A stretch of 64,000 nucleotides of DNA from Sphaerolaimus hirsutus (Eukaryota > Nematoda > Chromadorea > Monhysterida > Sphaerolaimidae), in the NCBI GenBank assembly GCA_964036195.1, contig OZ038452.1:25493785-25557784 (forward strand), written 5' to 3'. The notes under the pieces are model-generated. The model saw only the letters and a list, made by a program, of their open reading frames with translations. It was not told where the DNA came from and made no database searches. Position numbers and translations under genes: made by a program. This document shows positions 2,913 to 52,900 of this stretch, one piece after another; the stretch's first letter is position 1, and each line of letters starts with the position of its first letter.

Positions 2913-5900
2913 ATGATGTTCGTAGGGGACGTCGCGCTGAAACGGAAGACAGGCCCAGACTGCGATCGCCCCATTCCCAAGCGATCTCGTACCGCGCTAT
3001 CACCAATTCAGGTGCGTGTCGCGGGTCGGTTCGGCTTGCGGCTTTGCTGCTGCGTCGACCAATTACTAGCTTATTGGCACTGTGCCAAAATTTCGAAATA
3101 ATTTGTTTAGAGGAGCTTTTTGCTGCTACCGGAAGACAAAATGGGCTATTATCCATATAAATTCGTAGCGGCGTAAACATGATTGCCGCAATATCATGTA
3201 TATAATATCACTAAATATTTACATGTTTACAATGCGTATTCAAATTCCAAGGCTGACTTTTTTAGGCGTGCGTCGAGCCAGTTGACGACTGGTGCGATTT
3301 GCTGCCAACTGAGTTGCCTCACGGCGATTTTATCGTTGAGGAAATACATCGCGATGATGCCCAGTGCACAAAGATTCGAGTGCAGGCTCTGGGTAAGTTG
3401 TGCACATTTGTTATGTTTTATTGATGTTTTTTTTTGTTATGTTTTATTTATTGAACATTCGTGAAAAATGAATGGGTGTAAGTAGCGTAAACACCGTGGA
3501 TTTGTAGCGTAATGCGTTCTTACTGTGCAGTACGGAGTCGTAGAAAACGTATATCCGTATTCTTTGCTCAACCGAAAAGTAAATTTCTAACTGTACAGTT
3601 CGATTCCTTTGCGTGGACATTTAATCTCTACAATAGATGCCATCACCGTAAAATCCCAGGCCCATTTCCGCTCACGTAGACGGTCGCTCACCCCTCAGCC
3701 GTTGGGTGCAGCTGCGCGGCTTCTGGGCCGAGACCCAATTGCGGCGCGGCGCCAAACTGCGCGTGTTCGCCCGGCCGGCGGAGCTGCGAGCCTCCACGCT
3801 GCTAGTGAGCGACCAGCGCAATTACTGCGTCGCGTGGCCCGACACGCTGGTGCCAATCGCAGACCCTGTAAAATGTCAACTGTCATTCAAAGTGTCAAAA
3901 GTCGTGTAAAATGCCCTGCAGAATGGCAAACACGTTTGCCATTTTGCAGGGCATTTTACACGACTTTTGACACTTTGAATGACAGTTGACATTTTGCAGG
4001 GTCTGGGACTGCCCCCTGGTCATGTGCACCACGGTGGCGGGCGGCGTGTACTGCCGCAGGAGGGCCGTGCTCAACGAACGATTCAAGGGCGGCTGCGACC
4101 CGGGAAACAATGTCATGGTTGGAGGTAAGTTGACCGGGTTGGGTGGGAGTGCGGTTCAAACGGGACTGACTTTTCGGGATCGGGATTGGCCTATTCAGCT
4201 TTCTAGATCGAGATTGGGGTCACTGGATCGAGATTTTGGTCAAAATTCTGGCACTCAGAGTTGTTTACAAAGGTCTAAAAACACTCTTGAGCGCCAGAAA
4301 ATGCGCATAAAAGCGACGCTGGAGGTCCCCGTTCACATTTTTAGTGCAAAAATGTCATTTTTTCACCTATGTCAAAATGTCTTATCATTTCTTCTGATGT
4401 TTTCGGAATCGTAATTGGGATTTGAAAATTTTCAGGATCGGGATTGGTTTTTCCAGATTTCGGGATCGGGATCGCTAAATCCCGAAAATTTTCGGGATTA
4501 GGGTTCAAACGGGATTGACTTTTCGGGATCGGGATCGGGATTCACTTTTTGAGCTTTCGGGATCGGGATTGGGGTTTCGGGATCGGGATCGGGATTGGTT
4601 TTTTGAGATTTCGGGATCGGGATCGGGATTGGCCGGGATTGGGGTCACGGGATCGGGATTGGGATTGGCATTTTTCCGGGATCGGGATTGGGTTCTAGGG
4701 ATAGAGATTTTGGCCATTTTTCTGGCATTCACAGTTGTTCATAAAGGTCTCAAAACACTGTTGGATGCCAGAAAAGTGGCATAAAATTGACGCTGGGGGT
4801 TTGCATGCACATTTTTGCATGCAAAAACGTCATTATTTCACTTTTTATAATTTCCACTAATTTTTCTGGGATCGGGATCCCGGACTTGGGAGTTTCTCGG
4901 GATCGGGATCGGGATTTGAAAATTTTCGGGATCGGGATCGGGATTGGTATTTTTGGATTTCGGGATCGGGATCGGGATTGGGGTTTCGGGATCGGGATCG
5001 GGACTGGTAAATCCCGGAATTTCACGGGATCCGGGATCGGGATCCCGTTTGAACCCTATTCGGGATCGGGATCCCGTTTGAACCCTAGTTGGGAGTGGCT
5101 TGGGTTTGCGACTTCTTTTTTTTGTGACTTGCGGACTTGCCCCGTTGCAGATTTGATAGCTAAAAATTTCCATATCTTGTATCTAGCAGGTGTAGAAAAC
5201 ACCCAGTGTAGCTAGAAATCCAAACAGGTCGAAGACGAGTTATCGTCTCACTAGGGGTTTAGTGGATTTGAACACCTCCTGAAAATACTCCGTATGTTAC
5301 GCCGACTAGCGATTTTGAAGGTCAAAATCGCTAGGAATGTATAAAATATAGCGATTTTGAGTGAAAATTGGGACAAAATTCCTCGAAAATCACTTCCAGT
5401 TAGTTATATATTTAGATGGCTGGCGATTTGGGGGGGGGAGAGTTCGAGGGATAGTAGCCAAAACATTTGCATCGGGATAGATGCATAGATAGCTGAGCGA
5501 CCCCGGGGATGGATATATAGCTGGAGCGTTTGGGGGGGGGGTAACACCCCAACCCCTCCCCCATACTGAACCACTTCGTCTCATAGCTGATTTATACCCC
5601 CAGGCACGCTGCTGCACTGTTTGTTCCAGTCCTCGCTGAGAATGAATCCAAACGACCTCAGCGACGATTGGCTCGAGCGGCAAACTTGTCGCGTCCTCGA
5701 GCAGGACAGCGGAATCATGCTGCAACTGGTGCCACTCCCAGACCTTGTAAAGTACCCTGTAAAATGTAAAATGTCACGCAAAGTGTCAAAAGTCACGTAA
5801 AATGCTCTGCAAAATGGCAAATCGGCTGCCATTTTGTAGGGCCTTTTACATGAATTTCGACACTTTGTCTGACATTTGACATTTTACAGGGCTTTTTACA

Positions 5901-8900
5901 CGGTCTGGGAGTGGCACCTGGTCGCGCTCAAATGGCCGCCTTCAGAAGTTCTCGAGTACATGCGGCCGTTTTTTGCGCATGTAAAGAAATGGTGCATGGA
6001 TCATTTGAAACATCGCAAGCCGCTGTATGCGGGTGGGCCCTCGGTCGCTGCTATAAGGGACATTGAAGAAAATGTCTGGTGTGATAAATTTGGTGCGTTG
6101 GTGCGCTGTTCGAGTGTGCTCTGCTCACTGAATATTTATTTTTGCGTGCGTCTGCGCTCGCGTAAATACGAGTATGGTGAATTGTAAAATTTGGAATATT
6201 TTTCCTGATATACTCGATTACTTATCCCGACGATCTCTAAATCTGCAATTTACTGTACCTTCTAAGTTCTGAAGTTTCATAAATGTTGTGTACATTGATA
6301 TTTCACAAATTTTTCTAAACAGCCGCAACACAGCTCACATATTATCAGCATTCTACATAGGCGTTCGCGGAAAAGTCGACGTGACGGTGCAATCGAATCG
6401 ATCCGATGGCCTTTTAGTGCCGATAGAAATCAAAACGGGAAAGTCGTCCGCTGGGGCGGACCACCGCGGCCAGGCGCTGCTCTACACGCTCATGTTGTCC
6501 AGCTTCGAGTCCGGCGCCGGCGGCGGCGGCGAGCCGGGCGCTCGCGATGCCGCTCTGCTCTACCTGAAGGATGGGTCGACGCATAAGGGTTGGTGTAGAG
6601 ACAATACATTGAGGAGCGATCATGGTGTCGTGCCTGGGTTTTTTTCAAAGGGTTTTTTTTTAAACAAGCATCGATACCGTTGCTTTTTATAAAAAAACAT
6701 ATCCGCCGAAGTTTTTAGTACTTAAGCACTACTGTATTTCTCCGATCAAAGCACCCCCCCCCGTTCAAAGCTCCCGGGGTGCTATGCTGTGCAAAATGTT
6801 CCGTGTAAAGCACCCGGGTGCTTTACTCCTCATCCGAAAAAAATTTGGTGACCATCTGTTCAGGGGTCTCCTAGGGGGGGGGGCTGGGGGGGGGCTGCCC
6901 CCCCCCAAACCGGCCAGCTATCTATCTATCCCGGAGGCCGCTCAGCTATCTATCTATCCCGAGGCAAATTTTTTGGCTACTACCCCCAAAGACCCCCCCC
7001 AAATCGCTCAGCTATCTATCTATCTGGAGTGGTTTTTGAGAAATTTTGCCCCAATTTTCGCTCAAAATCACAAATTTTCGCACCTTTTTATAGTTTTTCA
7101 CCTTTAAAATCGTGCTTTCAAGTTATATACATGGTTATATACCTATATTGAGCCATTTTATGCCTACTTTTGGCTACTTTTAACTGATTATTAGCGATTT
7201 TTTCTCCTTTCTGCCTTCTTAACCTTCAAAAAGCCTATATATTGTGCCCCCGCCAGCCCCCCCCCAAGCCCCCCCCCAGCCCCCCCCCAGAAAAATTTTC
7301 CAGCTATCTATCCCTCCGGAGGAGCGATTTGCTATCTATCCAGCCCCCGCGAGGGCCAAAATCCTGGAGACCCCTGCATCTGTTAGCGGGGTCGTGTGGA
7401 GTTATGCTCCTATAGATTGGGGCGTCTGTTTGTGCACTCGAGTCCAGTTATAGGTTTTTCGCCATATTGGATGTTTTAGGGGTCAAAGGCGTGTGTAAAA
7501 AAGATCGCGTGCCTGTGTTATGAAACAAAATATGCTATCTCGGTTGTCGATTTTAGCTAACTTTGAATATGAATTTATCAAAATTTTAGATCCATTGACA
7601 GCGCCTATTCAAAAGTCTATTCACTACAAACTTTAACCACGCTTGTTATGCAACCGCAACGGTTCCATTTCACACGCATACACAGAATGTTGCATAACAT
7701 GGGCAAAAGCCACATTTTTCTGCACGCAACGATGAGACGCGTGATTCTGTGATGCGCGCGGCGGTCATCACGCGAAAAAAGCCAAGCTGACATAGGAGCA
7801 TAACTCCACTAGGGTTGGCCGATGTTTTTTTTTAAACGTTTTTTATTAAACAAAAAACGTTTTTTTTAATAAAAAAAACATGACGTCCGAAATGTTTTTT
7901 TTTTAAAAAAAACATCGAACGAAATTTTTAGTACTAAGCACTAGGTATTTTGCGAAATTTTTGCGCGCAAGCGCGCAATTTCACACACAAATTGACATTG
8001 GTGGTTGTTTTCATTGGTTTTGTGGCATTTTTAGTATCAAAGTATCCATTTCTATGTGCTACCATGGGTTAATAAGCCGTCATATGTTGCTGTACTATAT
8101 ACTATTGAGGTAATGTGCTTCCATGTACCTCAACAGTGTGTAACTTCACTCCCAAAGTAACAACCTCCTTTTATAACCTTGTTTGATCACTATTCCGTGC
8201 CAAACTTTACCTGAAGTCACGAACATTCGACTATAAGGCGATATACAAACGATATGTTGACGAAAAATGGATATTTTTGACACAAATCACCACTTATAAT
8301 GCTATCCCATGGCTCCACAGCCATTATATGGTCATATATAACATCACAGAGTATTGCCACTGTCTGATATACCTATATATTTTGACACAAGGTCATACCT
8401 GGGAGCTTTTAAAAAAAAACGTTTTTTATTAAAAAAAAACGTTTTTTTTATATAAAAAAACGTTTTTTTTTTAAAAAAAACATCGAGTTAAAAAAAAACG
8501 TTTTTTTTCCAACCCTAAACTCCACAACGCTGTTAGCGGGTATAATATTGCAGAGAGGAAAGATCAAAGTTCATCTAATAATCTTTTTTGCATGGTGCGC
8601 AGCGTTCTTTTAGCACACATGCCAATTGAATTGCACGCTGCGGTTAAATCAAAGGCTTCTGGTTTGATTCACCAGGGAAACTTCAAGTGGCACTTGTGTT
8701 AATAGATTTGTGGGTCGTGGAATTATTGCCTTTCAAGTCAAAAGTCGATTAGTCAGTATTATTATTTAAGTGTCTATCATCAGTATCGAACAAACATAGT
8801 ATAGCACCCTGTGATTTGCATTGCACCAGGGTGCTAAAAAAGGCCCTTAAAAAGTAGTTTAAAAAGTGCTCCAATTTTGTAAAGCACCAGGGGTGCTTTG

Positions 8901-11900
8901 ATTGGAGAAATACGGTATGTATATGTTGCAATTCTTTTGAGTTTTTTAAAACCCCCTTCGAAAAAATGTCATTTTTAAAAAACCGGATCTTTGAAAAAAA
9001 GTTTTTTTTACCATCCCCAGTCGTGCCAACCCCAATTCACTCTGTACCCATTTCAGTGTCGCCCAGTGCGGGCTTGCTGCGCGGCCTGCTGCAGCTGCGC
9101 AACCACCTGTCGTATTACCTCAGCGCCACGGCCGAGCCCGGCCAGGACACCGGGGTCGCCTCTGAGCTGCCCGACGTGATCAACGACGAGCGCTCGTGCG
9201 GCATGTGCCCGCACCGGACCGTCTGCTCCGTGTTCGCCTCGACCAGCGCCGACGCACCCGCTGCTATTGATCCAGTGTATGCTGATGGTGGGTGATCATT
9301 CGATTGATTCTCTGGGATGGGTAGAGCAGGTTTATTTCAATTTCGGACGAATATAAGTTGTAAAATAGCCACGGACATGGCCGTATCCAGGGGGGGCGGG
9401 GGGGGGCTGCAGCCCCCCCCTCCCGGGGCGAGACCAGAAAGTGACCGGAAAATGCGACTTTTTCAACGTCAGCGTAAAAAATTTTGCGCGCAAGCGCGCA
9501 TTCTTCGCCAGACATAAGGTATTATCATCAGATTTGCTCCATGTTGCAGCAAATCGTTATAAATGCACTCAATGGTGTGCTTTTTGTCGTTTTGTATGTA
9601 TATTTACATACATATACAGCGTTTCATGGCGCTGACGCCAACGCCAATAGCGCCATGGCGTGGCGCCTACTAATGGCGCCAGCGCCATTCCGCCACAGTG
9701 TACCCAAAATTTTAGGGGGGGGGGGGCTGAGCCCCCCCCCCCATCGCCGGCCTCCGTAAACAAGCAGCCCCCCCCCGCTCAAAAATTCTGGCCACGGACC
9801 TTGTAAAATATCAAATGTCATGCAAAGTGTCAAAAGTCATCTGAAATGCCCAGGAAAAAACGGACGTTTGCTATTTTGCAGGCCATTTTACGTGACTTTT
9901 GACACTTTACAGGGTCTTATACTGGAACCTGGTACTTTCTAACTATAGTACGATTCTCGCAGCCACATCGCACTTGTCAGAGGCACAACGGCGACAATTC
10001 GTGCAGCTGTACGAGCGGCACGCGGCGCGCTGGTGCGACGCGGTCACCCGCAGACCCTCCAATAAATCCGCCTGGCTTGAGGATGTCGATTGCCGGTTTG
10101 TCGGTTGGATTTTTGTCAGTTTGTAATGAGCGTTCGAAAAATCTCGGGAGATTTTTTTATTGTTTCTTGAAAATACAATATATTTTTTGTTGGTATTTTT
10201 CGAGAGATGTTTAATAGTTGAATTTTTATGAGATTTTTTTTAAATTATTGGAATTAATTGAAGAAAAAACGAATAACATTTTTATATTTTTGCAGCTTTT
10301 ACCGGAGGAACATCTTTTATCTATATTTTCGTTTTCTGACATTTTCTAGGCCTTTTTATTTTAAAATGCAATTAGATCATTCACTTCGCAGCGAAGCAGC
10401 CGGGCAGGCCATTGGCGATCTGCGAATAAGTTGCATCGGGCGGCCAGCTGACCTACCGCGCGCCGCCGTTTGCCTTTCGCACGTAGTGACTTTTGAGCGC
10501 GCCAAGTCCGTTTTTTTACCATCAGACGTACACTGACACCATTGTAGCACAATTTCACTTATTACAGTGGATCCGGTTTACCGAGTGGTGTGTTTCGGTG
10601 CGGCGACATGGTGCTGGTGTCGAGCGACACGCGTCGGCACCACGTGATGTTTCTCGGCCCCGTCACGTCCATCGGTGGTGCGATCAATTTTTCTAGCTTT
10701 TATCATGTAATTCACACTTCAGGGACACTTTCATCGTCCCCAGAAAATAACATTTCGGTGCGTGTCGACCGCCGGCCGCGACCCGGCATCAGAATGGACA
10801 GATTTCGCATCGATCGTTACTCGAGTTTTTCCACCTTCCAGTGGCAAATGGCCTCACTCAGCCGCCTTATTTCGCCCGATTGCGATCGCTCGTTAGCTAG
10901 CTCAGTTTTCATTGCGTCCGGGGTCTCCGTTTGTAGAAGGTTGAGGGAATTTGGGGGCCCCGTCGTGTTATCGACAAGGACGTATACAGGGGGGGGGGGC
11001 TACAGCCCCTTCCTCCCCCCCACCGTTCCCGGGTGAGACATGAAAAAGTCGGTGAAAATGCAACTTCTGGTACCACTTGAAGGTGTAATAAAAAAAATTT
11101 GCGCGCAAGCTCGAATTTGCCAATCTCGCAGATGTATTGTTGGTTAATCGGTCCTTGTAGTCTCACTGTGCTAGGACCAGTGCACAAGTAAACCCGGTGC
11201 ACAAGTAACAGTGTCCGGTGCCAATGTAGACCCGGTGCTTAGATACGGTTCCCATAATTGAGAACTGGGTCTTCATGGGCACTGCAGGGGTTCAGTATGG
11301 GGTATTGGAGGGGGTTGGGTTACTCCCCAAACGCACCAGTTATCTACATGTGTATCTAGCGATTTTTCTCTCTTTTTACTTCTAAAGCTTGAAAAACTCC
11401 ATTGAACCCCTGTGACCCCCCTCCAAAAACAACAAATATACACATGATTAGTGATGGGATGGTGCCATTTGAGGGCGCCAAAGTACGCCGCACCATGGCG
11501 CCCTTCAACTACTTTTGCTACTTGTGCACCGACCCGCCCCCGTCTCACTTCACTATTTAATACACTAATTGGCTGAGCCACCCCCCGTCCCCTGTTAAAC
11601 AAGCAGCCCCCCCCCCCCCGCTCAAAAATCCTGGATACGTCCCTGGTTATCGGGGTCCAACATAGCGAGAAAATATAGACGTTGGGACTGCGGCGCGTTG
11701 GCGCGGGAGATATTTACAGTATATCCTCGAATAAGACCCCAGGCGAGTTATTATTTCGTCAGAAGTTTTGGATGGGGCAGTTATTTTTCTTCAGAACTTG
11801 CACTTTATTCATTGTATGAATGCATTGTGTAAACTCATGTAATCCAGGTATTCAAAAGTTCAACAACAACAAAAACAATGTATTCATACTAAAACTCATG

Positions 11901-33800: not shown

Positions 33801-35967
33801 GCTGCCGCGCCACCGAGATCCTGTCGGCGCTGCGGCGGCACCGCGCGCTCTACGTGCGTCTGGCCGTCGCCAACGGCAGCATCAAGCACATCGTGCTCAT
33901 AATCGCCGTGCAGGTGAGCGCAGTGACGTCACGCAGTGGGTTCAAATGGGATTGACTTTTTCGGATCGGGATTGGGGGTCCCGGGATCGCGATTGGCATT
34001 TTTCGGGATCGCGATTTTGGAAAAAGTTCTGATTTTGAAGTTTTTTCGTCGATTTGCCAAAAAATTGTCTAAAACACATCTGGATGACAGAAAAGTGGCA
34101 TAAAGTGGTAACCTGAGGTTTCCGTTCACATGGCATTTACCTGAGTTGGCAAATTTTTCTGCGATCGGGATTATATAATTTTTTCTGGATTGGGATTTGA
34201 AAATTTCCAGGACCGGGATTGGGATGCGTTTTTTTGAGATTTCGGGATCGGGACCCAAAAATCCCGAAAATTTTCGGGATTCCGGATCCCGTTTGAACCC
34301 TAGTCACGCAAGCCATAATCCTCCTGCATCATCATCCTGGTGCCACTCCCAGACCCTGTTAAGCCATGTAAAATGCAAGATGTCATGTAAAATACCCTTT
34401 AAAGTGTAATGTGTATCCAAATTTTTTTATTGTATCCTAATCTTGTTTTTGTATCCAAATCTTACTTTTGGACATAATATTTGGATACGATAAAATAAGA
34501 TTTGGATACACATGACATTTTACATGACACATGACATTTTACAGGGTCTTTGACACTTTACAGAGTCTTGGAGTGCCCCCAGACTGCGCGGTAACCCGTC
34601 GCAGGCGTGCCCCGGCACCGTGTTCCTGCTGTACCACATGCTCAAACTGCTGCTGCGCTACGAGTACACCGAGGCGATGTTCTGGCTGCCGGAGCTGGTG
34701 TGCAACGCGGCCCAGCTGCACACGGCCGTGGTGATGGCGGCGCGCATCCATTTCGACGCGCACGCCGTCAAGCGCGTGCTCATGTGCTCCGCCCTGGTCG
34801 CCAGTCTCGGACCCTGTAAAATGCCGTGTAAAATGTAAAATGTCATGCAAAGTGTCAAAAGTCATGTAAAATGCCCTGCAAAATGGCAACCGAGTTGCCA
34901 TTTTGCAGGGCATTTTACATGACTTTTGACACTTTGCATGACATTTCACATTTTACACCGCATAGTACAGGGTTTGGGACTGCCCCCTGGTCACAGGGGA
35001 CACTACTCCCCACGCGATAGGAGTGGGCAACCAGTCGCCCCTGTTGACAGGCGGCTGCGACTCGGATGAACGAGAGCGGGCGTCCAAGGTTACACGGCTG
35101 TTTACCGTAGTTGCTTGAATAGTTCCCTCCTCGAATAATGCCCCCTGTTAGACACGCGTGGAAAAATTGGCCTCACTCGAATAATTCCCCCTCAAGGCAT
35201 ATGATAAATAAGTTGTGTATAATTTGAACAAAAATGGTGAAATGAAGCATATTTCATGAAATTAGTTGAAAGGACGAAATTTTGAAAGGTTGAAAAATTT
35301 TGAAGAAAAAATAATTCCCCTCTTGAATAGTTCCTCAAGTGACGAAAAAATAGTTCCCCAGGGGAAATACAGTATTTCTAGCTAGGTTCACATAAATAGT
35401 TGACAGAACCTGACAATGTTGTTTTCAATGTAAAAAGCAGGCAGTCGCAATACAAAGCCGACTACAGAAGGAAGTTCGGCGCTACATCAACTTCTTGTCG
35501 CTTGGCAACCACGGGATCACTATTGGTGACTTTCTCACCATAACTAATGCGTCAGTTTTTACGGTAAGTTGAGTTAAATTGGATTTGTTTGAAGTTGGGT
35601 TTGTGTTCAATTAAGATTTGCCACGTATAAATTGTTCACTCGAACACAATTCGCTGAGACATCACATTGGATAGAAAATGTATGTGATTTCATAATGTCA
35701 AGTGAAAAGTGTCCAAAAGAACCCTACAGAAACCACGACGCTCAACTTTTTTTTACTTGTTGACTTTGGATGTATTGGACAGCGTGCCTCAGGACAACAT
35801 ACAAGCATAACATTCAAATAATAGTTTTTTGGTCAACTGCTTTTCAGTTTCTAACTTTCTTATTCCAGGTTATATCTATAATTATCACCTATTTATCTTT
35901 GACTATTAAAAGTATTCCTATTCTTGGTGTGGTTGGTTCAAACTGCACAGATGCTGCGCGACTGTGA
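27801..35967 (+). CDS. Gustatory receptor family 7TM protein (8-9 exons)
   Basis: Exons: 27801-28021, 28195-28353, 29369-29461, 32393-32524, 33712-33913, 34605-34796, possibly 34990-35088, 35441-35563, 35869-35967. Length is 439 aa with the optional exon and 406 without; arthropod gustatory receptors run about 350-450. Hydrophobic helices include WEMLLVVASMYAG, CLLLDCVPVLLSFSAVV, LWLAAILHTTLATLC, HIVLIIAVQ with GTVFLLYH, and ISIIITYLSLTI. The loop ALRRHRALYVRLAVANGS and the terminal block EVRRYINF...GITIGDFLTI then ITYLS follow the receptor family's last intracellular loop and TM7 pattern, although the usual final QF is KS. Such receptors are ligand-gated cation channels of chemosensory neurons. 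The first exon is split by an introner at 28022-28194; another lies at 34797-34989, where joining 34796 directly to 35441 is also in frame. The start ATG is the first in frame, but an upstream exon is possible. The third exon boundary is inferred from phase. Confidence 0.68.
28022..28194 (+). mobile_element. Introner in first exon of gustatory receptor
   Basis: The 5' end is altered (CCT|GTGAAGAGCCCTGTAAAG) and the 3' end is GGTCCGGGACTGCCCCTG. The frame works in two ways: removal to 28194 (ending CTG), or splicing to the ACAG at 28176, which keeps six element-derived residues (VRDCPW). The 3' tail is 18 nt instead of the usual 19, which is what makes the canonical option in frame. Confidence 0.83.
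28545..28645. repeat. TACTCGGCGGAC / GGAAGCGTGCC repeat fragment
   Basis: TTTATACTCGGCGGACTCGATACTCAGCAC then ATGTCTCATGTTGGAAGCGTGCC, matching parts of 40955-41105 and 56565-56800. Confidence 0.5.
28978..29290. mobile_element. TACCGTA-class copy in receptor intron
   Basis: GGGGGTATTTCGAGGGGGGGG...CTTATTCC and GGGGGGTATTTCGAGGAAATACGC; the outer left end is lost. Confidence 0.55.
29584..30734. mobile_element. hAT-like element, TTCGAAAATTCGAAA type
   Basis: TAACGATGGCAAAA...TTTGCCATCGTTA with duplicated GTGGGGTG (29576-29583, 30735-30742). End arrays of TTCGAAAATTCG; a CGTAAACG-type fragment (30015-30190) and a half introner lie inside. Confidence 0.85.
30213..30290 (+). mobile_element. Half introner (5' arm only)
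   Basis: CCACTTCCAGTTCTAGATTCTGTAAAATGCCCTGTAGAATG followed by the usual left arm, which then stops at GTAAAATGTCAAAC. It lies inside the hAT-like element 29584-30734. Confidence 0.6.
30902..32029. mobile_element. hAT element relic, TTTCCGTTTTCCG type
   Basis: TAGGGTGTCAACTTTCCG...TTTGTTGACACCCTA with duplicated GTTCTAAC (30894-30901, 32030-32037). Arrays of TTTCCGTTTTCCGGC at both ends flank a core with the broken transposase end (31394-31530). Confidence 0.9.
31394..31530 (+). pseudogene. Broken hAT transposase C-terminal (dimerisation) fragment
   Basis: Forward translation gives SSVPSEQLFSVAGSLYNERG, then SNL, a TAG stop, then AETAEKLIMLHQLL. This follows the hAT C-terminal dimerisation pattern (P-x-SS-x-x-SE-x-x-FS-x-AG ... 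L-x-x-x-x-AE-x-L-x-x-L). Only the end of the protein remains, and it has an in-frame stop. It lies in the middle of the hAT-like element 30902-32029, between its two arrays of TTTCCG motifs, so that element descends from an autonomous hAT. Confidence 0.75.
32560..32965. mobile_element. TACCGTATTTCCTCGA element in receptor intron
   Basis: Matched ends TACCGTATTTCCTCGAAATACC and GGTATTTCGAGGAAATACGGTA; the middle shares ACGTACGCAGACGTAGAAAAATG and ACGTTCTCTGTACACTCAATTT with 39656 and 46161. Confidence 0.78.
33168..33355 (+). ncRNA. U2: U2 spliceosomal snRNA
   Basis: The gene begins ATCGCTTCTCGGCC, as U2 does. It contains the branch-point recognition segment GTGTAGTATCTG and then TTCTTATCAGCTTAA, followed by stem II sequence and an Sm site (ATTTTTGG, about 33268). 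It ends with a 3' hairpin region (GGGTTGGCCC ... GGGAACGGCCC). Length is about 188 nt, the normal size. GATCAAAGTG and CAGCTTAA match the arthropod form better than the vertebrate form. It sits in the same orientation inside the intron between receptor exons 32393-32524 and 33712-33913. No upstream PSE was identified by eye. The branch-recognition bases are unchanged, so this copy offers no special explanation for unusual splice sites. It could be a retropseudogene, but the full-length intact 5' end argues against that. Confidence 0.93.
33936..34302. mobile_element. hAT-like MITE, CGGGATCGGGAT type
   Basis: GTGGGTTCAAATGGG...CCGTTTGAACCCTA with duplicated GTCACGCA (33928-33935, 34303-34310), just after the donor at 33914. 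Confidence 0.83.
34337..34582 (+). mobile_element. Introner copy in receptor intron with inner hairpin
   Basis: CTG|GTGCCACTCCCAGACCC on the left and GGAGTGCCCCCAG on the right. The centre (34410-34515) is an inverted repeat of GTATCCAAATCTTA, the same core as the copy at 41303-41690. The downstream exon can start at 34605 after CGTCGCAG in the correct phase, so this copy need not be an intron by itself. Confidence 0.8.
34797..34989 (+). mobile_element. Introner at 3' edge of gustatory receptor exon
   Basis: Hairpin with 5' end GTCGCCAGTCTCGGACCC (one extra C against the consensus) and 3' end GGTTTGGGACTGCCCCCTG, flanked by CTG on both sides. The frame stays open across 34990-35088 if it is excised exactly. 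Exon 34605-34796 could instead splice straight to 35441, in which case the element merely lies in a longer intron. Confidence 0.8.
35105..35374. mobile_element. TACCGTA-class element in receptor intron
   Basis: TTACCGTAGTTGCTTGAATAGTTCC and its inverse GGGGAAATACAGTA; interior CTCGAATAATTCCCCC units. Confidence 0.5.
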
Positions 35968-36540: not shown

Positions 36541-39500
36541 TCAAACATCCTGCCCATCATCACCACCAGCTGCCCGCACAACTACATCATCGCCGAGCGC
36601 GGCGCACAGGGCGGCCAACCTGGCCTGCATGCCGGGCACGGCGGCCAGTCGCCGCTCCAGCTGGGCCTTCTCCTCGGACAGACTGCCCTGGGGCAGTCCC
36701 AAACCCTGTAAAATGCTCTGTAAAATGTCACGCAAAGTGTCAAAAGTCATGTAAAATGCCCTGCAAAATAGCTACCGAGTTGCCATTTTGCAAGTGATTT
36801 TACATGACTTTTGACACTTTGCGTGACATTTTACATTTTACAGGGCGTTTTACAGGGTCTGGGACTGGTACCTGCGCCTGCAGCTGTTCCTGGGTGAGCT
36901 GCTCCAGCCGCCAGCCGCCCTCGCCGTCGAACAGCAGCACGTGCGTGTGCCACCGCCACAGACTCGGCCGGTGCGACACTGTTAGCAGGGTCACGCCCAG
37001 GTCCTGGCACGTGTTGATAGTGGGTATTTGAGTTGACTTTAAATAGGCATGAAAGTGTGTACTGAGTAAATACTTATGGGTACAATACTTTAATTGTACA
37101 AGCACCCATCTGTACGTGTAAATTTTCATGAGTACTGGCCCCCAGTACTACTGGGTACCTCTGAGTATTTCAGAAAATTTCAGGAATACACACAAAAACA
37201 AAGTGACCATCATGCCTGCATTACCATATACCTATTACCTATTTACATGTATTTGGATTTTAGAATGCAGGCATACCCGGAAAAATACTCAACTTTACTC
37301 TTCCATGTAGAAAAAAATATTTTACGCAATTTTACCCAGGTACATGGTAAAAAAGTAATTTACCCGGATATTTTATGAGCACGGGTAAAAATCAATTTAT
37401 CTACTCGTATGCATACTTTTGAAAACAGATAGGTGCCAACAAGAACAACAACGAGAACCGTCCATTCCACACCACACCACCAGCGAACGCACCTGGAGCG
37501 CCTTGTAAATGGACGCCTCCACATCGACACTGATAGCGCTGGTGCACTCGTCGAGCATGGCGAAGGGCGGCCGGTGGTAGAACACCCTGGCCAGACCGAC
37601 CCTTTGCTTCTCGCCGCCCGACAGCACGTCGGCCCAGTCGCGCACCGAGTGCCAGCCGCCCTCGCGCGTCACGATGTGCTCCAGGTGCACTTGACGCAGG
37701 ATCTCGCCGATCCGCCGCTCGGTGACGCCGCGCCGCCGCATGTCCGCCGTCGTTTCCGGGTAGATCACCTGCGAGGGGAAATGGGTAGAGCGAAACGACC
37801 CTGTAGTCATGTAGACCTGCTAGTCATGTAGACCTGCTAGTCATGTATTTCAGGGGGATTAAAACAGCATGTTGAATTAGCAGTGGTTGGTTTCCATGAT
37901 TAATAGAGTACACAGCGCAGACCTCTATGTGTGCAGAGTGTGCACTCAATTGTTTTATTCGCTCTTTTGATGATACCACTCAAAGTAAACTCATAAATCA
38001 CTCAAAAACTCATAAATCTGTTTCTGTTGTTATGCATTTGAGTTTTTTAATTTTTCATTAAGTGGTATCATCAAAAGAGTGACAAAAACACACATTGCGG
38101 CCCGCGCTATGTACTCTATTAATCATGTATTTAAACCCACTACTGCTAACTCTCTGTGCCGTTCTAATCCCATCTCAAGGACGTATCCAGGTGGGGGGCG
38201 GGGGGGGGCTGCAGCCCCCCCCCCCCTTCCCGGGGTGAGACCCAAAGGTCCCGGAAAATGCAACTTTACCTAAATATTTTCCGATGTTTCTTAAAATTTT
38301 TGCGCGCAAGCGCGCAATTTCGTCCCCATGCATTGTATTTTCAGCGAATCGGCCCCTGTAAACCAATATACTCGGAAATAAAACCCATTTTTGCGATTTT
38401 CGCTGTATATGTATGCATTTTACATACATATAAAGCGGTTCCTGGCGCTGGCGCCAACGCCAATAGCGCCATGGAATGGTGCCTTTGTATGGCGCTAGCG
38501 CCAAAACGCTTTTCCGTCCCTATATAGGGAAAAATTTTAGGGGGGGGGGGGCTGAGCCCCCCCGTTCGCCGGCCCCCGTAAACAAACAGCCCCCCCCGCT
38601 CAAAAATCCTGGATACGTCCCTGTCCCATCTCAAATACCGTATTTCCTCGAATTACCCCCCGGGGGTTTATTTTTTCAGAGTGAAGATTTTGAGAGAAAA
38701 ACGTGAAAAATGCAACAATAATCACCATTTATAAGTTTTTACAGCCTTATATAAGGATGTAGATGGTATAAACGATGTTTCAACGTATTATAACACAGTG
38801 AGTGTTTTGAACGTCTGTTATGCATTTCCCGGACCACAAATTGATAGTGCCCATATTGAGGGGGGTATTTCGAGGGGGGGGGGGTATTTCGAGGAAATAC
38901 GGTACATGACTGGCGGGTCTACGTGACTACAGAGTTCATATGACTAGTAATTAGAATAAATAATTCAGGTAGAATTAACTATCAATAAAAGCCTAAATAG
39001 GTAGTATACACGGGCAGATGATTTACGATGCAATCAATCGGGCCGCTTGACAGGCTCAAAGGGTCATTAAAATTTTGCACCTGGTCGAGCAGCGTGCCCA
39101 AAGTCATGTAGGGCTTCTGCGGCACGTAGAACATGGTGTGGGCGGGCGGCCTATGCAGCGTGCCGCCGGCGACCGGCCACAAGCCGGCCAGCACGCGGAA
39201 CAGCGACGACTTGCCGCAGCCGTTCGGCCCCGTGATGAGCAGCTGCACGCGACGGTCGATCTTCAGCGACAGCGACGACACCACCACGTCGCCCGTGGGC
39301 GTCACGATGGGCACTTGGTCCAGACTGATTTTGTCCAAATCGTTTGTTACCACGGACACGCCTGCGTGGATACTCATTGGAACTACTAGAAATGATAAAA
39401 TTTGAGAATGAAATTGGGAAATTTATCAAAATTGTTATACTGGGCTGGACGCAAAGTATGCGTCCAAAATTACTTATGTTTGGGTCGATAAAGCGCCAGC

Positions 39501-42500
39501 AGGATACTTATGCATGCTTTTTTACAAATAAAAATATCTGAAAAAGAAAATAGCAGATGCGCGTACTTTTTTGAAACGTTTCTTAATACTTTTTGGAAAA
39601 AATCTTATCAATGATGAGGTCATGATGGAACGTTTCCTTCAGAAAATTCAAAGCATACCGTATTTCCTCGAAATACCCCCAGGGGGTTTATTTTTTCAGA
39701 GTGAGAATTTTGAGGGGGGGTATTTCGAGGGGGGTAATTCGAGGGGGAGTTATTATATCGCCAGAAATTTTTTGAACTCCCAGTACTAATAACGTACGTA
39801 GACGTAGAAAAATGTGACAAAAACCACCATGTATAAGAGTCTACAGACTTAAATAAGTATGTAGATGGTATAAACCATGTTATAACGTAACACAGTCATT
39901 CTTGTTAACCTGTGTTACGCATTGCCAGATCACAAAACGTACCTTTTGTCATGTACGTTCTATTTACACTCAATTTGGGCGGGGGCATTTCGAGGAGGGG
40001 GTTTATTCATTCATAGTGCCCATGTTGAGGGGGGGGGGGTAATTCGATGAAATACGGTACCTAGTTAATCACAACATTTCGTCAGTAAATCTCAAGTAAA
40101 CATTTCCTCAGTAGGTAATTCACAACCCCAATCACCTTTCATGTTCTGCACGTCGACCTTATCCTTGCGCACGATGTTCTCGTGTTGTTCGAGTTGCGGC
40201 CGTACATAATGCTCGTCGGCGACCTCTTCGAAAACGTGGAACATTTCTGAAACTCTGGAAGTGTAGCCGCTCAGTTCTGCGACCTGGATAGTACCAGAAA
40301 ATCAAATTTTGCGTCCACATAGCAATTTTCAACCTTTCAAAAATCGTTTCAAATAGGCAAATTCACCTTTTTGTATGAGCTCATAAGCCTCTCTATGGCA
40401 TCTGCACCGTTCATCAGCAGCGCTTTTGCTGTGGTGAAGCCCTTTGTTCTTTCCGACACTCCACCGTCACCGCCCAAATCTGAGCAAAAATTCATAATAT
40501 ACATATGGATAACTACCGTATATCCTCGATTAAAGTCCCACCTCGAATAACTACTTCCGTTGGCTGACTGAACAAAAACTAACTGCCCCTCTCGAATAAC
40601 TCCCCAGTCAAACAAATCTGACGAAACAATAACTCCCCCGGGGACTTATATGAGGATATACGGTAGATGTTTAATATATGCTAATTACAATATGACAAAC
40701 CATGACCACTGGACTGAAAATTAGCAGTCAATATTGGCACGGCGACGAGCACCATGCCCAGGGCGGACCAGATGTATTTCATGAGGAATTGTTCCAGCAT
40801 GATGTAGCCTATGCGCGCCTTGTAAAGCTTGTGCATCTGCTGCCGCAGCGCCGCCCAAGCGGACGCGATGTGTGCAAGTTCCGTCTGTGACGTGGAAAAT
40901 TCCGTCACACATTTTGAACCCAACTGCACCTATACTCTAGTGACATGACGCGCTGCACGTGCCGTTAGTTATGTCTCACATTGGAAGCGTTCCAATGATA
41001 ATTAAAGCATGTGATTTTTGTAAAAAGATAAAAACTTTTAGTTGTTGTGAATACATTGGCACGCTTCCAGCGTGAACCACGCGTGCAAGGTGTAGACTCA
41101 CTGGAGCATACAAAAAACGCACCTCATTCCCTCCATAGAAGGCGATCTCCTCAGAGTGCGCAATGATCCTAGAATGAACGAATCGCAACTTGCCGCGCCG
41201 CTTGGCGCACTCGGCGGTGATCTGCCCAAATCTGGGGCTGAGGGCTTTCAGCGTGCGCCCGGTGCCCATCATGACTAGCACGATTAGGCCGCCGAGGTAG
41301 GCCAGGGGGCAGTCCCAGACCCCGTAAATGGCCTTGTAAAATGTAAAAGACCCTGTAAAATGTCATGTGTCATGCAAAAGACCCAGTAAAATGTCATGTG
41401 TCATGTAAAAAAACGCTGTAAAGCGTCATATGTATCCAAATCTCATTCTATAGATTCCAAATCTTATGTTTTTGTATCAAAATCAAGAATTGGATACAAG
41501 AACCTAAGATTTGGATACTATAGACAAGATTTGGTACACATGGCACATTACAGGGTCGTTTACATGACACTTTACAGGCTCTTTTACATCACCCATGACA
41601 CTTTACAGACAGGGTCCCTCACATAACGCCTGACATTTTACAGGGTCTTTTACACTTTACATGTGTTTTTACAGGGTCTGGGACTGGCACCAGGTGCGTG
41701 CCGTTGGCGCCGCGCGTCGCCGCGCCCGCCACCAGCGTACTGGTTATTAAAACGATGTCCAAAAGCGGCTTGGTCAGGTCTGAGTAGAGGCTGGCCACCG
41801 CGTCGCAGAACGATCCAATGTCTTCAGTTAGACACTGGTCGGCGTTCGCGAGCCGGCCGTCCATGTTGCTCACGCGGTAATACGTTTGCCTCTGATTGAT
41901 TGGGTGCAAGGAATTACGGGCAATAGTTACTTATTTACTCATCGAAAATTACCGCATTTGCTCGAATAATTCCCCCGGGGAATTCATATTTCGTCAGACT
42001 TTTGTGAGGGGATTCGAGGGGGGATTATTCAAAGGGGAGGGATAATTATTTCGTCAAACTTTTCAAGCATGTCTCTTTCAAGTCATTCCACAAAATATGC
42101 TTTATTAACATACTAACATGCCATTCTTGTTCCAATTTGACATTACAAATTGACCATAATCCATTAGGAACGAATTATTAAAGGGGAGCATTATTCTTTA
42201 CTCGCCCGCATTACCTGGGGGAATTATTCAAAAGTGGAATTTATTCAAGGGGGAATCATTTTAGCAAATGCGGCATGTCGAATTTTCATTCTTAATCGAG
42301 CATATTTCTCCAAATCTCACATCTCAATCTCACCACACGAACCACAATGTAAAACCATTCACCCACCTGAAAGTACATAGCATAGGCCCTCTTAGCCAAT
42401 CTGTTCCTGAAAGCCAAGCCCAACACGCTCTCAAAGTACTTAATCATGCTGTTGATGAAGGTGGCCGGCACCGCTATAAACAACCACTTTGCGAGCAATT

Positions 42501-43771
42501 TCAGAAAAGCGGGCACGTCCTTTTGGACGATGCTTTTCACGATCTGGCCGTCCATTCTGGCGACATAAATGGACAGGAAGGCGCGGGCCACCAGCACACC
42601 GGGGGCAGTCCCAGACCCTGTAAAATGCCATGTAAAATGTGAAATGTCATGTAAAGTGTCAAAAGTCATGTAAAATGCACTGGAAAATGGCAAACGTACG
42701 TTTGCCATTTTCCAGTGCATTTTACATGACTTTTGTCACTTTACATGACATTTTACATTTTACAGGGCACTTTACAGGGTCTGGGATTGGCACCAGAGTG
42801 TCCATAAAGTATGGCCGCCTCTTTGCTGAGCGCGCCGGGCACCATGGTGCGTAGCAACTGCACCAGCTGCTTCACGAACTGCTTGTTGGGGCCGCTTTTT
42901 CGTGGCACCAGTGTCTTAGCTGGAACAGACACTGAGGCTGGTGGTCCACGACCTGTGCGACAAATTCACGGATTTAATGATGTTCGGCACCCATTCTTTT
43001 TTCTAATGTATTTAGGGGGCCCATAATAAGCAAAGGAAGTATAAATCCAACACCCATGGGGGTGGATTTATCAACATACTTTTTAGCTCGAATTTACCAA
43101 AGACCTCATTTTCAACTGACAGGTGCAATTCGTCAAAAGGAAATGTAACAACCAATTTATAAGTGAGAATTGAAATTCGAAGTAATAGTCAAAACAAGTT
43201 TCAATAGTTGTGCCCCTTCCCATTTCATTCCTCATGTCTAAATTTACAATGCTTCACTTTTTGGTTCAAATTTATCTTTCTTTCAAACTTTGTACTCCTC
43301 ATTAATAAATCGGTTTTTCACTGCCAAACTAGCACCAGATGCCAGTTCCGCAACTGGAGACGTGAAAGCGCAAATGGCAAAAGCCAAGTGAATTGGCAAG
43401 TAAATTGGCAAAAGCGAAGTAAAAATGAGAATTGAAATTGCACATTTGTTTTTTTAATTTACTTGTCATTTTATTCAGCTTTTGCCAATTTATTTGCCAT
43501 TTCACTTGGCTTTTGCCATTTGCGCTTTCACTTCTCCACTTGCGGAACTGGCCAACGGTCAACCAAACTCATAAAGCACAAAATTTACGGCAACAACAAC
43601 CCAGACCACACAAACAGCTCACTCACCCCTCCTAGAACCGGCATAGCAGCAGAGACCAACTCCAGCGCTGGCCACCGTGCCAAAAAGGATGAATTTTAGC
43701 CGCCGTCGTCGCTGTTCATCGCTGAGTAGTAGCTGCAAAGTCTTTTGAATTGATTCCACAAATTGGGACAT
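36541..43771 (-). CDS. ABCD1: Peroxisomal ABC half-transporter, ABCD1/ABCD2 type (12 exons)
   Basis: Exons in coding order: 43627-43771, 42794-42952, 42367-42599, 41691-41891, 41123-41302, 40701-40884, 40367-40479, 40136-40283, 39081-39361, 37493-37768, 36872-37003, 36541-36687. Sum 2199 nt, 732 aa, all phases consistent; human ABCD1 has 745. The membrane domain carries [20 protein letters not shown]-like and SEEIAFYGG blocks. The ATPase domain has Walker [10 protein letters not shown] (about 499), signature LSGGEKQR (about 597), Walker B FAMLDE (about 617-622) and H-loop TVSHR (about 651). The C-terminal tail [19 protein letters not shown] identifies ABCD1/2 rather than ABCD3, which lacks it. 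Family role: homodimeric import of very-long-chain fatty acyl-CoA into peroxisomes; loss of human ABCD1 causes adrenoleukodystrophy. Three junctions are introners (42600-42793, 41303-41690, 36688-36871). The frame closes only if each is removed exactly or leaves a multiple of three. The gene converges on the receptor gene, 573 bp from its stop. Confidence 0.93.
36688..36871 (-). mobile_element. Introner in ABCD1-like gene (CAG/CAG, GT-AG)
   Basis: On the coding strand it reads CAG|GTACCAGTCCCAGACC ... GGGACTGCCCCAG|GGC. The 184-bp hairpin is a perfectly canonical GT-AG intron, created because the duplicated triplet is CAG. It joins QLQAQ to GSLSEEK. Confidence 0.9.
38178..38624. mobile_element. 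G-run element, complete copy
   Basis: AGGACGTATCCAGGTGGGGGG...AAAAATCCTGGATACGTCCCTGT with CCCATCTCA repeated on both sides (38169-38177, 38625-38633). Interior has TTGCGCGCAAGCGCGCAA and GCGCCA units. Confidence 0.78.
38636..38904. mobile_element. TACCGTATTTCCTCGA element, compact copy
   Basis: Matched ends; middle AAACGTGAAAAATGCAACAATAATCACC...AACGATGTTTCAACG is the uninterrupted form of the copy broken at 30902. Confidence 0.8.
39437..39655. repeat. TACTGGGC...CGCAAAGTATGCG repeat in ABCD1 intron
   Basis: TATACTGGGCTGGACGCAAAGTATGCGTCCAAAATTACTTATG and GAAAATTCAAAGCATACC; a shared family with 48701 and 49211. Confidence 0.5.
39656..40059. mobile_element. TACCGTATTTCCTCGA element in ABCD1 intron
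   Basis: Matched ends and the shared middle (AACGTACGTAGACGTAGAAAAATG, ACGTTCTATTTACACTCAATTT). Confidence 0.78.
40514..40664. mobile_element. Short TACCGTA-class element
   Basis: CTACCGTATATCCTCGATTAAAGTCCC and CCCCGGGGACTTATATGAGGATATACGGTAG are inverted. Fills ABCD1 intron 40480-40700. Confidence 0.7.
40955..41105. repeat. GGAAGCGTTCC...GGCACGCTTCC inverted repeat
   Basis: ATGTCTCACATTGGAAGCGTTCCAATGATAATTAAAGCATG then GTTGTGAATACATTGGCACGCTTCCAGCGTGAACCACGCGTGCAAGG; similar at 18280-18660 and 56565-56800. Confidence 0.55.
41303..41690 (-). mobile_element. Long introner in ABCD1-like gene (CTG/CTG) with inner hairpin
   Basis: Coding strand: ACG CAC CTG|GTGCCAGTCCC ... GGGACTGCCCCCTG|GCC TAC. 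It is 388 bp because the centre (41428-41535) carries a second inverted repeat with the motif GTATCCAAATCTTA. Exact removal joins GTHL to AYLGG in a membrane helix. The in-frame AG alternative (ACAAG|GCC) would add ten residues there. Confidence 0.86.
41950..42275. mobile_element. TACCGCATTTGCTCGA element in ABCD1 intron
   Basis: TTACCGCATTTGCTCGAATAATTCCCC against GGAATCATTTTAGCAAATGCGG; interior AATTATTCAAAGGGG units. Confidence 0.6.
42600..42793 (-). mobile_element. Introner in ABCD1-like gene (CTG/CCG)
   Basis: Coding strand: CAC TCT G|GTGCCAATCCC ... GACTGCCCCCG|GT GTG. Exact removal gives [13 protein letters not shown], which aligns without a gap to the corresponding human ABCD1 segment. 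The interval then ends in CG. The 3' tail is one base short (18 nt), so the ACAG acceptor before GGTCTGGG is in frame and would leave six residues (GSGTAP). Which site is used cannot be read from DNA. Confidence 0.87.
43343..43552. mobile_element. Second hairpin family (GCAAAAGCGAAGTG) in ABCD1 intron 1
   Basis: ATGCCAGTTCCGCAACTGGAGACGTGAAAGCGCAAATGGC against GCCATTTGCGCTTTCACTTCTCCACTTGCGGAACTGGCC. Its size and terminal TGCCAGT...ACTGGC resemble the introners. Relatives at 47980 and 56163. Confidence 0.65.
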
Positions 43772-48376: not shown

Positions 48377-48670
48377 TAAACACCTTCCCGGTCACGTCCG
48401 GCACCCATTTTTTGATTTTACTTCTCACATCCTATACCCAGTTCTAGGGTGCCGCAGAGGCTGAAACTTGGGGGAGATATTGGCGCAACCCCCCTCTACC
48501 TCGCATGAATTAGGGGGGTCGCCGCGACCCCCCTAATTCATACGAGGTAGAGGGGGGTTGCACCAATATCTCCCTCAAGTTTCAGCCTCTGCGGCACCCT
48601 AGAACTGGGTGTAGGATGTGAGAAGTAAAATCAAAAAATGGGTGCCGGACGTGACCGGGAAGGTGTTTAT
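48377..48670. mobile_element. Near-perfect palindromic element, second copy
   Basis: GTAAACACCTTCCCGGTCACGTCCGGCACCC to GGGTGCCGGACGTGACCGGGAAGGTGTTTA, folding about GGTCGCCGCGACC near 48524. Strongly similar to 23507-23800. Confidence 0.82.
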
Positions 48671-48700
48671 TACATGAATATTTACATTGATTGGTATTTA

Positions 48701-49938: not shown

Positions 49939-52900
49939 TCAAAACATGCTGTGACTAGAAGTGGTAGCAGACGGGGCGAACGGCAGGGGCGGCCGTCTGC
50001 GGTGCGCGGCGAACCCGTTGGCCAGCACGGCCGTGCGCGGCAGGCTCCTGTGCACCACGCCCGCGTCCACGTCCAGCGGGTACACGGCGCCCACGGGCTT
50101 GGCTTCGGTCGCCGCGCCGCCCAAGCCGGATGCGCACTTGTTGCCGCCGTTGAACAGCCGCCCGCCGGACAGGGCGCGCTGCTTGCTCAGCCTGGGGGCA
50201 CTCCCAGAGCCTGTAAAATGCCCTGTAAAATGTCAAGTGGCATGCAAAGTGTCAAAAGTCATGTAAAATGCCCGGTAAAATGGCAAACGTACGTTTGCCA
50301 TTTTACCGGGCATTTTACATGACTTTTGACACTTTGCGTGACATTTGACATTTTTCAGGGCATTTTACAGGGTCTGGAACTGGCACCAGAAGTCCGTGTC
50401 GCGCACGTGCGTAGGCACCGAGCGCTCGCTGGGCGTGCTCGCGGCAGACTTGCCGTCAACTTGTGAGGGCGCCGCCGCCTGGGTCCCGCCATTGTTCAGG
50501 TGGTAGCGCCGCGGCAACGCGCGGGTTTGCGCGCAGCTGCCGGGCGGCGCGGCGCCGTTGGTTCTGCGCAACCGCAGACGAGCCTTTAGATACCAAATGT
50601 CAGAAAGCGTCAAAAACTTAAGCGACTCACCTTTGCGACGGCATGTACCTCAGCAGGCCGGCGGCGCGCGGCGCCGCCGGTTGTCTGGCGCTGCCGTTGT
50701 CGCCGAAACCGTCGTGCGGTGGATGCTCGTCCGAACATTGACTGGTGCCCTCCTGCATCTCTATTTGCTCGGGCAGTCGACTGAGCCACGGCGGGATAGT
50801 TTTGCTCTGGCTGCAGATTGGAGGCGGCGGCGGCGGCTCTTGCGGCGGCTGCAACAATTCAAGTGAAAATTGCAAAATAATGCAAATCGGTCGCCCGAAT
50901 GACTTATACACAGGAAATTCAGTTACCAAAAATTACAGCACTGTGCCTGCGTACGCTAGTTAGCACCGTGACTTCGGTGAAAGCTGAAATGGCGACATGT
51001 CGCCACCCAGTGCACAATGATTTTTTGCTATATGTGTTTTAGTTTTCGTATAATTAAAACTTTCATTAACTTAAATTCGAATTTAAAATAAATTAAATCA
51101 TTGAATCGAGTTGATTCATTTGAATTTGAATTATCTCTAATTTCCACCAAAATCACAGTGCAAACTAAATCACGCGCGCAGCGCAGCCAACATCAAAACC
51201 AAGACAACAAACACAGAATACACACCAAATCACTGGGCGACGCCTTATCGGGCGACGCGAAGCCGCTATCAGTGCTGTTGCTGTTCGCGGGACCGGAACC
51301 GTGCGAACAGCCGGCGTCGTGCTGCGGGCAGTGCGCGGCCGACTGCGACGGGTCGGTCCTGTCGCAGCAGCCAGAGTCGTCCGACCCCTCGCTGGTCGAG
51401 GGCGAGTCGACCTGGGGGCAGTCCCGGACCCTGTGAAGTGCCCTGTAAAGTGTCAAATGTCACGTAAAGTGTATACGTACGTTTGCCATTTTACCGTGCA
51501 TTTTCCGTGACTTTTGACACTTTGCGTGACATTTGACACTTTACAGGGCATTTTACAGGGTCTGGGATTGGCACCTGCTGCTCGCTGTCGACAGGTCGAT
51601 GCGGCGCGGCCGGTGAGTCGACCGGCGAGTGGTCGACCTCCTCGGGGATGTCGCCCAGGTCGCGCGGCGGGTAGTAGCGCCGCGAGCGGATGCGCCCGCG
51701 CGCGATGTCGATCATCCGGCGCACCTGCGTGACGCGGCATGTTTGTGTCAAGGTTGGGGATTTTTTTTATCCGATATTTTTTAAACGTCACACCTGATCC
51801 GATTTTTTTAAATCGGGGTCGTTAAAAAGTCGATTTTTCCCCAACAAGGGATGAAAGGGATGAAAGAGGGCTTTTTCCCGTTTTAAAAAAGTTCAAATTT
51901 GCCCATTTCACAGTCAAAAGACACTGCATTTTACAGTAGTGCAGTGTGTTGAAATCAGATAAGATCAACTCAAAAAAACACATACCTTATAAAAATTTTA
52001 ACAATTTTTTAGCTCAGAAATTCGAAAATTTAAAAACTGCGAGTATTTGTGGCAAAAATTCGAAAATGTATTTGTGACACTTCGACACCATCCGTCTTTC
52101 AAAACAATCTACACGTACCTCATACAGAAACTCTTCGGCTATGGGCGGTGGGTGCTTCATAAGTTCGGGATCGAAAAATTCCGGAGAAAAGTATAGCTTT
52201 TTCCTGGCGGCGTAGGGCGGCGGAGGTGCCGGAGGTATTCCCTGATCACAAAATGAACCGTTATTTCCCGCAGAATCGTGCGGCGCCTGGCTGTCAGTTC
52301 TGCGCGCGTACATCACTATGAACATCAATCATCATCAGTCGTCAATAACGATGGCAAACGAAAATCGAAAATTTGAAAACGTTCGAAAACGTTTTCGAAT
52401 TTTCGCATTTTTTGGTATCTTTGACTGAAAATGCCGAAAAACAATTCAAAACATCCGAAAATGCAGAAAACCAATTCAAAACATCTATTTCACAGGAATA
52501 CATTTGTAGCAGCAGAACAAAAATGTCCAGATTTGTCAATTATGAAGGACATAAAAGCTAAATAAGTAGTAATTAAAATTCCAAAATCCCAAAATTAACC
52601 GAAAAAGATTCAAAACCTAAATTCAAAAAAACCTTTTACAAAAAAAACCCTTTTCCCACAATGTTTCCCGCCACCAGCCACCAACCCAACTACCCACCCA
52701 CTGACCTCTGCAGCGGCGCGTGCCCACTCAGCTGGCAGTCGGCGGCGGACACCTGCTGGCTGGCAGCTGCGTCCACGCCCGCGCACACCATGGACTCGCA
52801 CGGCTGGCGTGACGGCACGCCGCCCGCGAACGGGTACCGGTGCTGCGCCGCCGAAAGGGCCACTTCGTTCACCTGCACAGAGAACAAAGCGTTCACTGTT

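Follow-up and report, generated by a model that had tools for sequence, protein, structure and literature searches.

The analysed stretch of DNA (in the following, the window) comprises 64,000 nt of contig OZ038452.1 of Sphaerolaimus hirsutus (positions 25,493,785 to 25,557,784) and is part of a 348-Mb assembly. Nine copies of one near-palindromic element with sizes of 160-390 bp interrupt or adjoin coding exons in the window, at the coordinates reported in an earlier note on this DNA, in which the element was interpreted as an introner, i.e., as a transposon that generates introns. All nine copies are inverted repeats, which are near-perfect in most cases. The GT start on the coding strand claimed in the note was found in every copy, with GTGCCA as the first bases in six of them and GTGAAG, GTCGCC, and GTACCA in the remaining three. 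Typically, the left end reads GTGCCA(N)TCCCAGACCCTGTAAA and the right end TTTACAGGGTCTGGGACTGCCCC with CWG (W, A or T) after it; exactly GACTGCCCC plus CWG is present at the right end of four copies, and variants of GACTGCCCC terminate the other five. With respect to the flanks, the tally of the note holds for CAG/CAG (two copies), CTG/CAG (one copy), and CTG/CCG (one copy), but CTG/CTG occurs at four copies and not at five.

The identities of two of the interrupted genes, DNA2 and ABCD1, were borne out by comparison with PDB. A Pfam search with the peptides beside the copies at 28022, 34797, 50192, and 51412 yielded zero matches, and the names gustatory receptor and shavenoid are those of the earlier note only. 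Both DNA2 copies are located on the plus strand with CTG/CTG flanks. Exact removal of the first (3850..4018) defines a GT..TG intron, the junction of which aligns gap-free to 5eax; an in-frame internal AG is present at 33 nt. The second (5729..5920) has GTGGCACCTG as right end, an in-frame internal AG at 9 nt and, with 5.0, the lowest codon score of the nine; DNA2 homology is found downstream of it and stops short of the junction. Also on the plus strand, the copy at 28022..28194 (GTGAAG..CTG) is situated in a gene without assigned name; it seems to have lost its left end and reads CCT and then GTGAAG at this side. Two of its internal AGs, at 18 and 30 nt, are in frame. The copy at 34797..34989 (plus strand, CTG/CTG) is predicted to fold into a hairpin of -142.2 kcal/mol (z -25.7) and, at 24 nt, contains an internal AG that is in frame.

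The remaining copies are located on the minus strand. ABCD1 homology occurs on both sides of the copy at 36688..36871 (CAG/CAG, canonical GT..AG), with three extra residues immediately upstream of the junction compared to ABCD1. The junctions of the other two ABCD1 copies, at 41303..41690 (the long copy, CTG/CTG) and 42600..42793 (CTG/CCG), align gap-free to 7shn. In case of the former, a 3-residue gap to 7shn follows about a dozen residues beyond the junction, and an in-frame internal AG is located at 30 nt. The latter, with a hairpin of -140.4 kcal/mol (z -25.9), contains an in-frame internal ACAG at 18 nt, the use of which would add six more residues, and its unequal flank reads as a likely 1-nt deletion. 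The copies at 50192..50386 (CTG/CAG) and 51412..51574 (CAG/CAG), both GT..AG, were assessed by codon score and frame. For all nine copies the codon score prefers the strand with the GT start, and exact removal gives the best frame; since the codon table was trained on the ABCD1 and DNA2 exons, it is no independent test for five of the nine.

In the whole assembly, four exact-end patterns covering copies of approximately 176-206 bp were found at 1358 places. Their flanks (given as 5'/3') are CAG/CAG in 624 cases, CTG/CTG in 439, CTG/CAG in 218, and CAG/CTG in 77. The left and right flanks thus match locus by locus far above chance (Fisher p 9e-107), as expected from a target duplication, which supports on a genome-wide scale the 3-bp CWG duplication proposed in the note. 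The flank match and the inverted repeats are both marks of a transposon. CTG followed by the left end occurs 5187 times with at most one mismatch, a number that counts ends and not copies. Seven CAG/CTG copies, most of them similar to each other in the bases listed, are clustered in a segment of 0.75 Mb (G000:C9:25.0-25.8 Mb), which suggests a local segmental amplification. Spread by viruses was considered and rejected, as an exact scan of viral contigs with each of the element ends gave 0 matches each.

To distinguish exonic from other copies, 30 codons on each side were scored for coding likeness (threshold 15) with a table of 891 codons from the ABCD1 and DNA2 exons of the window. Among 110 copies, sampled unequally across flank classes (50 CTG/CTG and 20 each of CAG/CAG, CTG/CAG, and CAG/CTG), 40 score as exonic with the GT on the coding strand, 3 score higher on the opposite strand, and 67 are not coding. 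Exact removal, i.e., of the element and one CWG copy, gives the best frame in 38 of the 40, the exceptions being L050 and L081. The corresponding p values are 3e-9 for the orientation bias and 3e-16 for the exact frame. The absence of such a bias had been named in the earlier note as one of the results that would refute its reading, and the reading was not refuted. In a second sample, drawn by the left end alone (n=30, of which 28 have the right end, and overlapping the first sample at six of the 30 loci), 9 copies were GT-oriented, 2 opposite, and 17 not coding. As background, the classifier gave coding calls at 183 of 4000 positions drawn at random from the window, and at 6 of 396 positions away from elements. 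Copies of the family are thus over-represented in coding exons, with a strong preference for one orientation. The three opposite calls of the first sample (L080, L103, and L144) reach scores of 21.7, 25.0, and 30.7, respectively, on the GT strand as well; two of the three are out of frame. On its GT strand, L103 shows a weak match to the BACK domain (E 0.058, below the curated cut-off); the other five of the six peptides derived from these loci had zero Pfam matches.

Retention of the element would introduce an in-frame stop in 39 of the 40 exonic GT copies. Apart from the three gap-free junctions in the window, those of an arginyl-tRNA synthetase gene (L056, compared to 4zaj) and an aspartyl aminopeptidase gene (L147, compared to 3var), both with CTG/CTG flanks, align without gaps as well. 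Ten joined peptides were submitted to Pfam. Domains cross the junction at five CTG/CTG copies (L130, 7tm_1; L137, kinase; L060, Sugar_tr; L054, Aa_trans; L057, E1_dh) and at the CTG/CAG copy L106 (Adaptin_N), the match of L087 adjoins its junction without crossing it, and L046, L062, and L068 gave zero matches. Hence, one family occupies putative intron positions in several unrelated gene families. The folding energy is slightly stronger in exonic copies (40 vs 62, p 0.02); a preferential retention of the hairpin in exons was set aside, as this difference is too weak.

The last letters of the presumed intron are provided by the duplicated target, so that insertion at a CAG site gives GT..AG and insertion at a CTG site GT..TG. 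The introner interpretation of the note is supported by orientation, frame, and the CWG duplication, but the note did not discuss that six of the nine window copies have a non-AG end and only three end in AG. The common form of the element contains internal ACAGs 19 and 31 nt upstream of its end, neither of which is in frame with the GT start. A YTNAY motif whose A precedes the end by 23 nt is found in 34 of the 40 exonic copies. Of the 17 exonic CTG/CTG copies, 15 have the AG at -19 and thus within 28 nt of the TG; taking all flank classes together, this AG occurs in 35 of 40 exonic and 45 of 62 other copies (p 0.09), and the AG at -31 in 31 of 40 and 33 of 62, respectively (p 0.02). Within 45 nt of the end, an AG that keeps the frame relative to the start GT was found in 2 of 17 exonic compared to 8 of 32 non-coding CTG/CTG copies. 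Even in a wider check, in which any GT in the first 30 nt could be paired with any AG of the terminal 80 nt of the element or of the adjoining 30 nt of exon, 8 of the 17 exonic CTG/CTG copies lack a stop-free in-frame AG: L056, L137 (kinase-like), L057 (E1_dh), L052, L062, L063, L068, and L146. With 17 copies in GT and 1 in opposite orientation, the exonic CTG/CTG copies as a class look like working introns. Because this orientation is kept although 8 of the 17 are without an in-frame AG, the sequences favour the view that the terminal TG is really used in many copies, and an AG in some.

Further indications come from the mixed flanks. The share of GT-oriented exonic copies amounts to 13/20 for CAG/CAG, 9/20 for CTG/CAG, 17/50 for CTG/CTG (17/45 after two other subfamilies are dropped), and 1/20 for CAG/CTG; the difference between the two mixed classes has a p value of 0.008. 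Genome-wide, CTG/CAG is 2.8 times as frequent as CAG/CTG (218 vs 77, p 9e-17) and nine times as frequent as CTG/CCG (24 copies). A mutation of T to C is usually easier than one of T to A. Due to the excess of CTG/CAG over CAG/CTG, the data suggest that TG acceptors work and are later bettered to AG. Loss of a C, by which the ACAG would be brought into frame, was considered as a second route of improvement and is unsupported by the counts of this 1-nt-shorter form with four Cs (44 vs 439 at CTG sites, 95 vs 624 at CAG sites). A form with six Cs is rare at CTG sites (5 copies).

The established observations are the family itself, the matching of its flanks, the orientation bias, the exact in-frame removal, the gap-free alignments, and the mixed-flank bias; splicing itself, the branch point, the use of TG, and the type of transposase are inferred. 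The element is very probably an introner derived from a miniature inverted-repeat transposable element (MITE), which duplicates CWG upon insertion and is spliced out in the GT orientation, with TG ends that are used and improved. According to this model, a non-autonomous DNA transposon in the form of a near-perfect hairpin would insert at CWG and duplicate these three bases. Its left end GTGCCA would serve as 5' splice site, a short C-rich stretch and, approximately 23 nt before the terminus, a branch-point-like TTTAC would be contributed by the right end, and the final bases of the intron would come from the duplicated CWG, with the hairpin possibly drawing the intron ends together. An exonic copy in the GT orientation would then be spliced out and leave the mRNA unchanged, and a copy in the opposite orientation would break the gene and get lost. 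TG ends would presumably be used less efficiently than AG ends, so that selection would later convert the 3' CTG to CAG, and the loss of AG at CAG sites would be purged; some copies may use an in-frame AG within the element instead. As the AG at -19 begins two bases past the branch A, it is perhaps skipped for steric reasons and the terminal CWG taken after the C-rich stretch. Alternatively, the first step might rely on the ACAG and the second on the TG, as in a proposal for human introns outlined in the cited part of PMC2374985. The more far-reaching claim that hundreds of young introns are constitutively spliced at a TG supplied by the target site duplication (TSD), with CTG/CTG as inserted, CTG/CAG as improved, and CAG/CAG as born canonical, has in our estimate an even chance of being correct. 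If true, a single family would show the birth and refinement of a spliceosomal 3' splice site. The origin of introns and the initial tolerance of the spliceosome for new ones are old questions for which few natural series of cases exist; here, two targets that differ by one base at the acceptor allow AG and TG to be compared directly within an otherwise identical element, and the exonic copies in conserved genes form a countable record of selection.

Several points weigh against this model, and some of them favour a different one. GTGCCA is a weak 5' splice site, and the strong hairpin could impede splicing. The excess of CTG/CAG may result in part from transposon movement, and a non-exonic subfamily is present in both mixed flank classes; furthermore, the flank-class samples are small and were drawn unequally, related copies are not independent, and the codon table is limited in size and origin. 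Opposite-strand scores occur in 3 of 110 and 2 of 28 copies. The copy at 41303 is without the usual out-of-frame AG at -19. In the cited part of PMC2374985, every human TG acceptor described has an AG next to it, and none is the only site. All six copies of the window with a non-AG end have a stop-free in-frame internal AG, by which 3 to 11 residues would be added. Thus TG use is not forced there, and the window alone is undecided between TG and AG acceptors and leans toward AG. On this basis, the elements might be introners whose CTG copies are without exception spliced at an AG, with residues gained or lost, and the copies without an in-frame AG would represent damaged genes. At least one such AG alternative, in the element or the exon, is present in 9 of the 17 exonic CTG/CTG copies in the wider check, and the somewhat better retention of the right-end AGs at -19 and -31 in exonic copies agrees with this as well. 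We nevertheless regard exclusive use of AG as rather unlikely, since the other 8 copies, that of the arginyl-tRNA synthetase among them, have no such AG, and damaged genes would not hold a GT orientation of 17:1. In case of the aminopeptidase, the AGs are located in the exon only, and their use would delete four residues or alter the start; the residues to be deleted align gap-free. Neither of the common ACAGs (19 and 31 nt) is in frame, and the shorter form that brings ACAG into frame is not enriched at CTG sites compared to CAG sites (see above).

Two further explanations dispense with splicing. An ordinary MITE that breaks genes by chance, with exonic copies as young disrupted alleles or pseudogenes, is compatible with the 67 of 110 copies that lie outside coding exons, but the strong orientation bias, the exact frame in 38 of 40, and the conserved genes with intact flanking exons make this very improbable. 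Removal of the element from somatic DNA by precise excision at the duplicated CWG, and not from RNA, would likewise be expected to act exactly at the target duplication, and programmed DNA loss is known in some copepods according to the cited part of PMC4029161. Such excision has no need for gene orientation, yet 40 of 43 exonic copies are oriented one way, and 9 of 20 CTG/CAG copies are exonic despite their unequal flanks; we consider it hardly credible. The introner MITE with usable TG ends remains the preferred explanation.

A window BLAST search with the nine copies as queries gave 17 merged intervals, nine of which are the known copies. The others include further members of the family at 1340..1532 and 34339..34582 and a copy or fragment at 9797..9925. 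A full-length U2 spliceosomal RNA gene (33168-33357, plus strand; RF00004, 155 bits) is located between introner-bearing genes. Two long near-perfect hairpins at 48377-48669 and 23507-23799 have ends like AAACACCTTCCCGGTCACG and belong to a different family; they were not matched in the BLAST search with the introner copies. Hairpins at 43341-43552 and 47979-48188, with ends like TGCCAGTTCCGCAA, represent a MITE family that resembles the introner family. Symmetric elements were considered as possible progenitors of the family. Copies of the symmetric form CTG..CTGGCACCTG number at least 28 exact matches genome-wide, some of them from another related family, which is a lower bound because the pattern overlooks GTGGCACCTG forms such as the copy at 5729; in the second sample, one of 28 copies has the symmetric end. 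The TGCCAGTTCCGCAA-like MITE type recurs among these genome-wide matches.

As for the relationship to known transposons, CWG duplications define the NuwaI transposons of the PIF/Harbinger-related PHIS superfamily, the ends of which usually start with GGG (described in the cited part of PMC4482050). The element shares with NuwaI, the animal hosts of which include one crustacean, the CWG target duplication, and the terminal GGG would fit its right end (GGGGCAGTC on the other strand); unlike in NuwaI, as characterised in that part of the source, the left end begins with GTG. Compared as terminal inverted repeats, the right end reads GGGGCAG and the left end GTGCCAG. A search for DDE_Tnp_4 revealed many Harbinger-like transposons among the matches listed. 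Many of these places have near-identical scores, and nearly all of them contain TGA stops within the matching part, which probably reflect an intron. One of them, L149 (G000:C3:5120700-5125600), is a Harbinger-like transposon with a DDE_Tnp_4 domain. A transposase that mobilises the element would be expected to share the ends GTGCCAGTCCCAGACC and GGGGCAGTCCCAGACC; L149, the only DDE_Tnp_4 transposon examined as a partner, contains none of the ends of the element in its 4.9 kb, and its distant inverted repeats are of chance length only.

Introners have been found in 175 of 3325 genomes, with copepods among the hosts (PMC9860276, in the part cited), and the remark of the earlier note that this family was not known to be described in an arthropod is thus too strong. 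As far as described there, those introners likewise form many similar introns from non-autonomous DNA transposons with TSDs and terminal inverted repeats, their splice sites either belong to the element or derive from the TSD, and their hosts include animals. By comparison of descriptions, the present element differs in that it consists almost entirely of one hairpin, duplicates CWG, and has its AG or TG set by the target. GT..TG ends are shared with the introners IE-B and IE-D of the alga Micromonas, which have 25 and 6 members, respectively; a CWG duplication or a mixture of AG and TG is not described in the cited part of PMC3879977. The introner elements of Amoebophrya, a dinoflagellate parasite, are also hairpins, with ends other than GT-AG and with direct repeats where they meet the exons; according to the cited part of PMC7789003, they have inverted repeats of 8-20 nt and variable splice motifs, in contrast to the GT start and the stem of approximately 85 bp observed here. 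Human U2 introns provide a parallel for the use of TG as 3' splice site when an AG lies no more than 28 nt away, but in the cited part of PMC2374985 the TG sites are alternative sites only, whereas in 8 of 17 copies of the present family the TG is the sole in-frame choice found. Recent intron gains with unusual splice sites are also known from a crustacean, the copepod Eurytemora affinis, with an odd donor (GA, GG) in the cited part of PMC5714493 and an odd acceptor in the present family. A literature search, the scope of which did not extend to the 2025 PNAS survey cited in PMC12768974, revealed no animal family in which the choice of target sets AG or TG in the parts of the sources covered. 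An animal introner family with AG or TG determined by its target may thus, although this is not firm, be new, whereas GT-TG introners and hairpin introners are already known.

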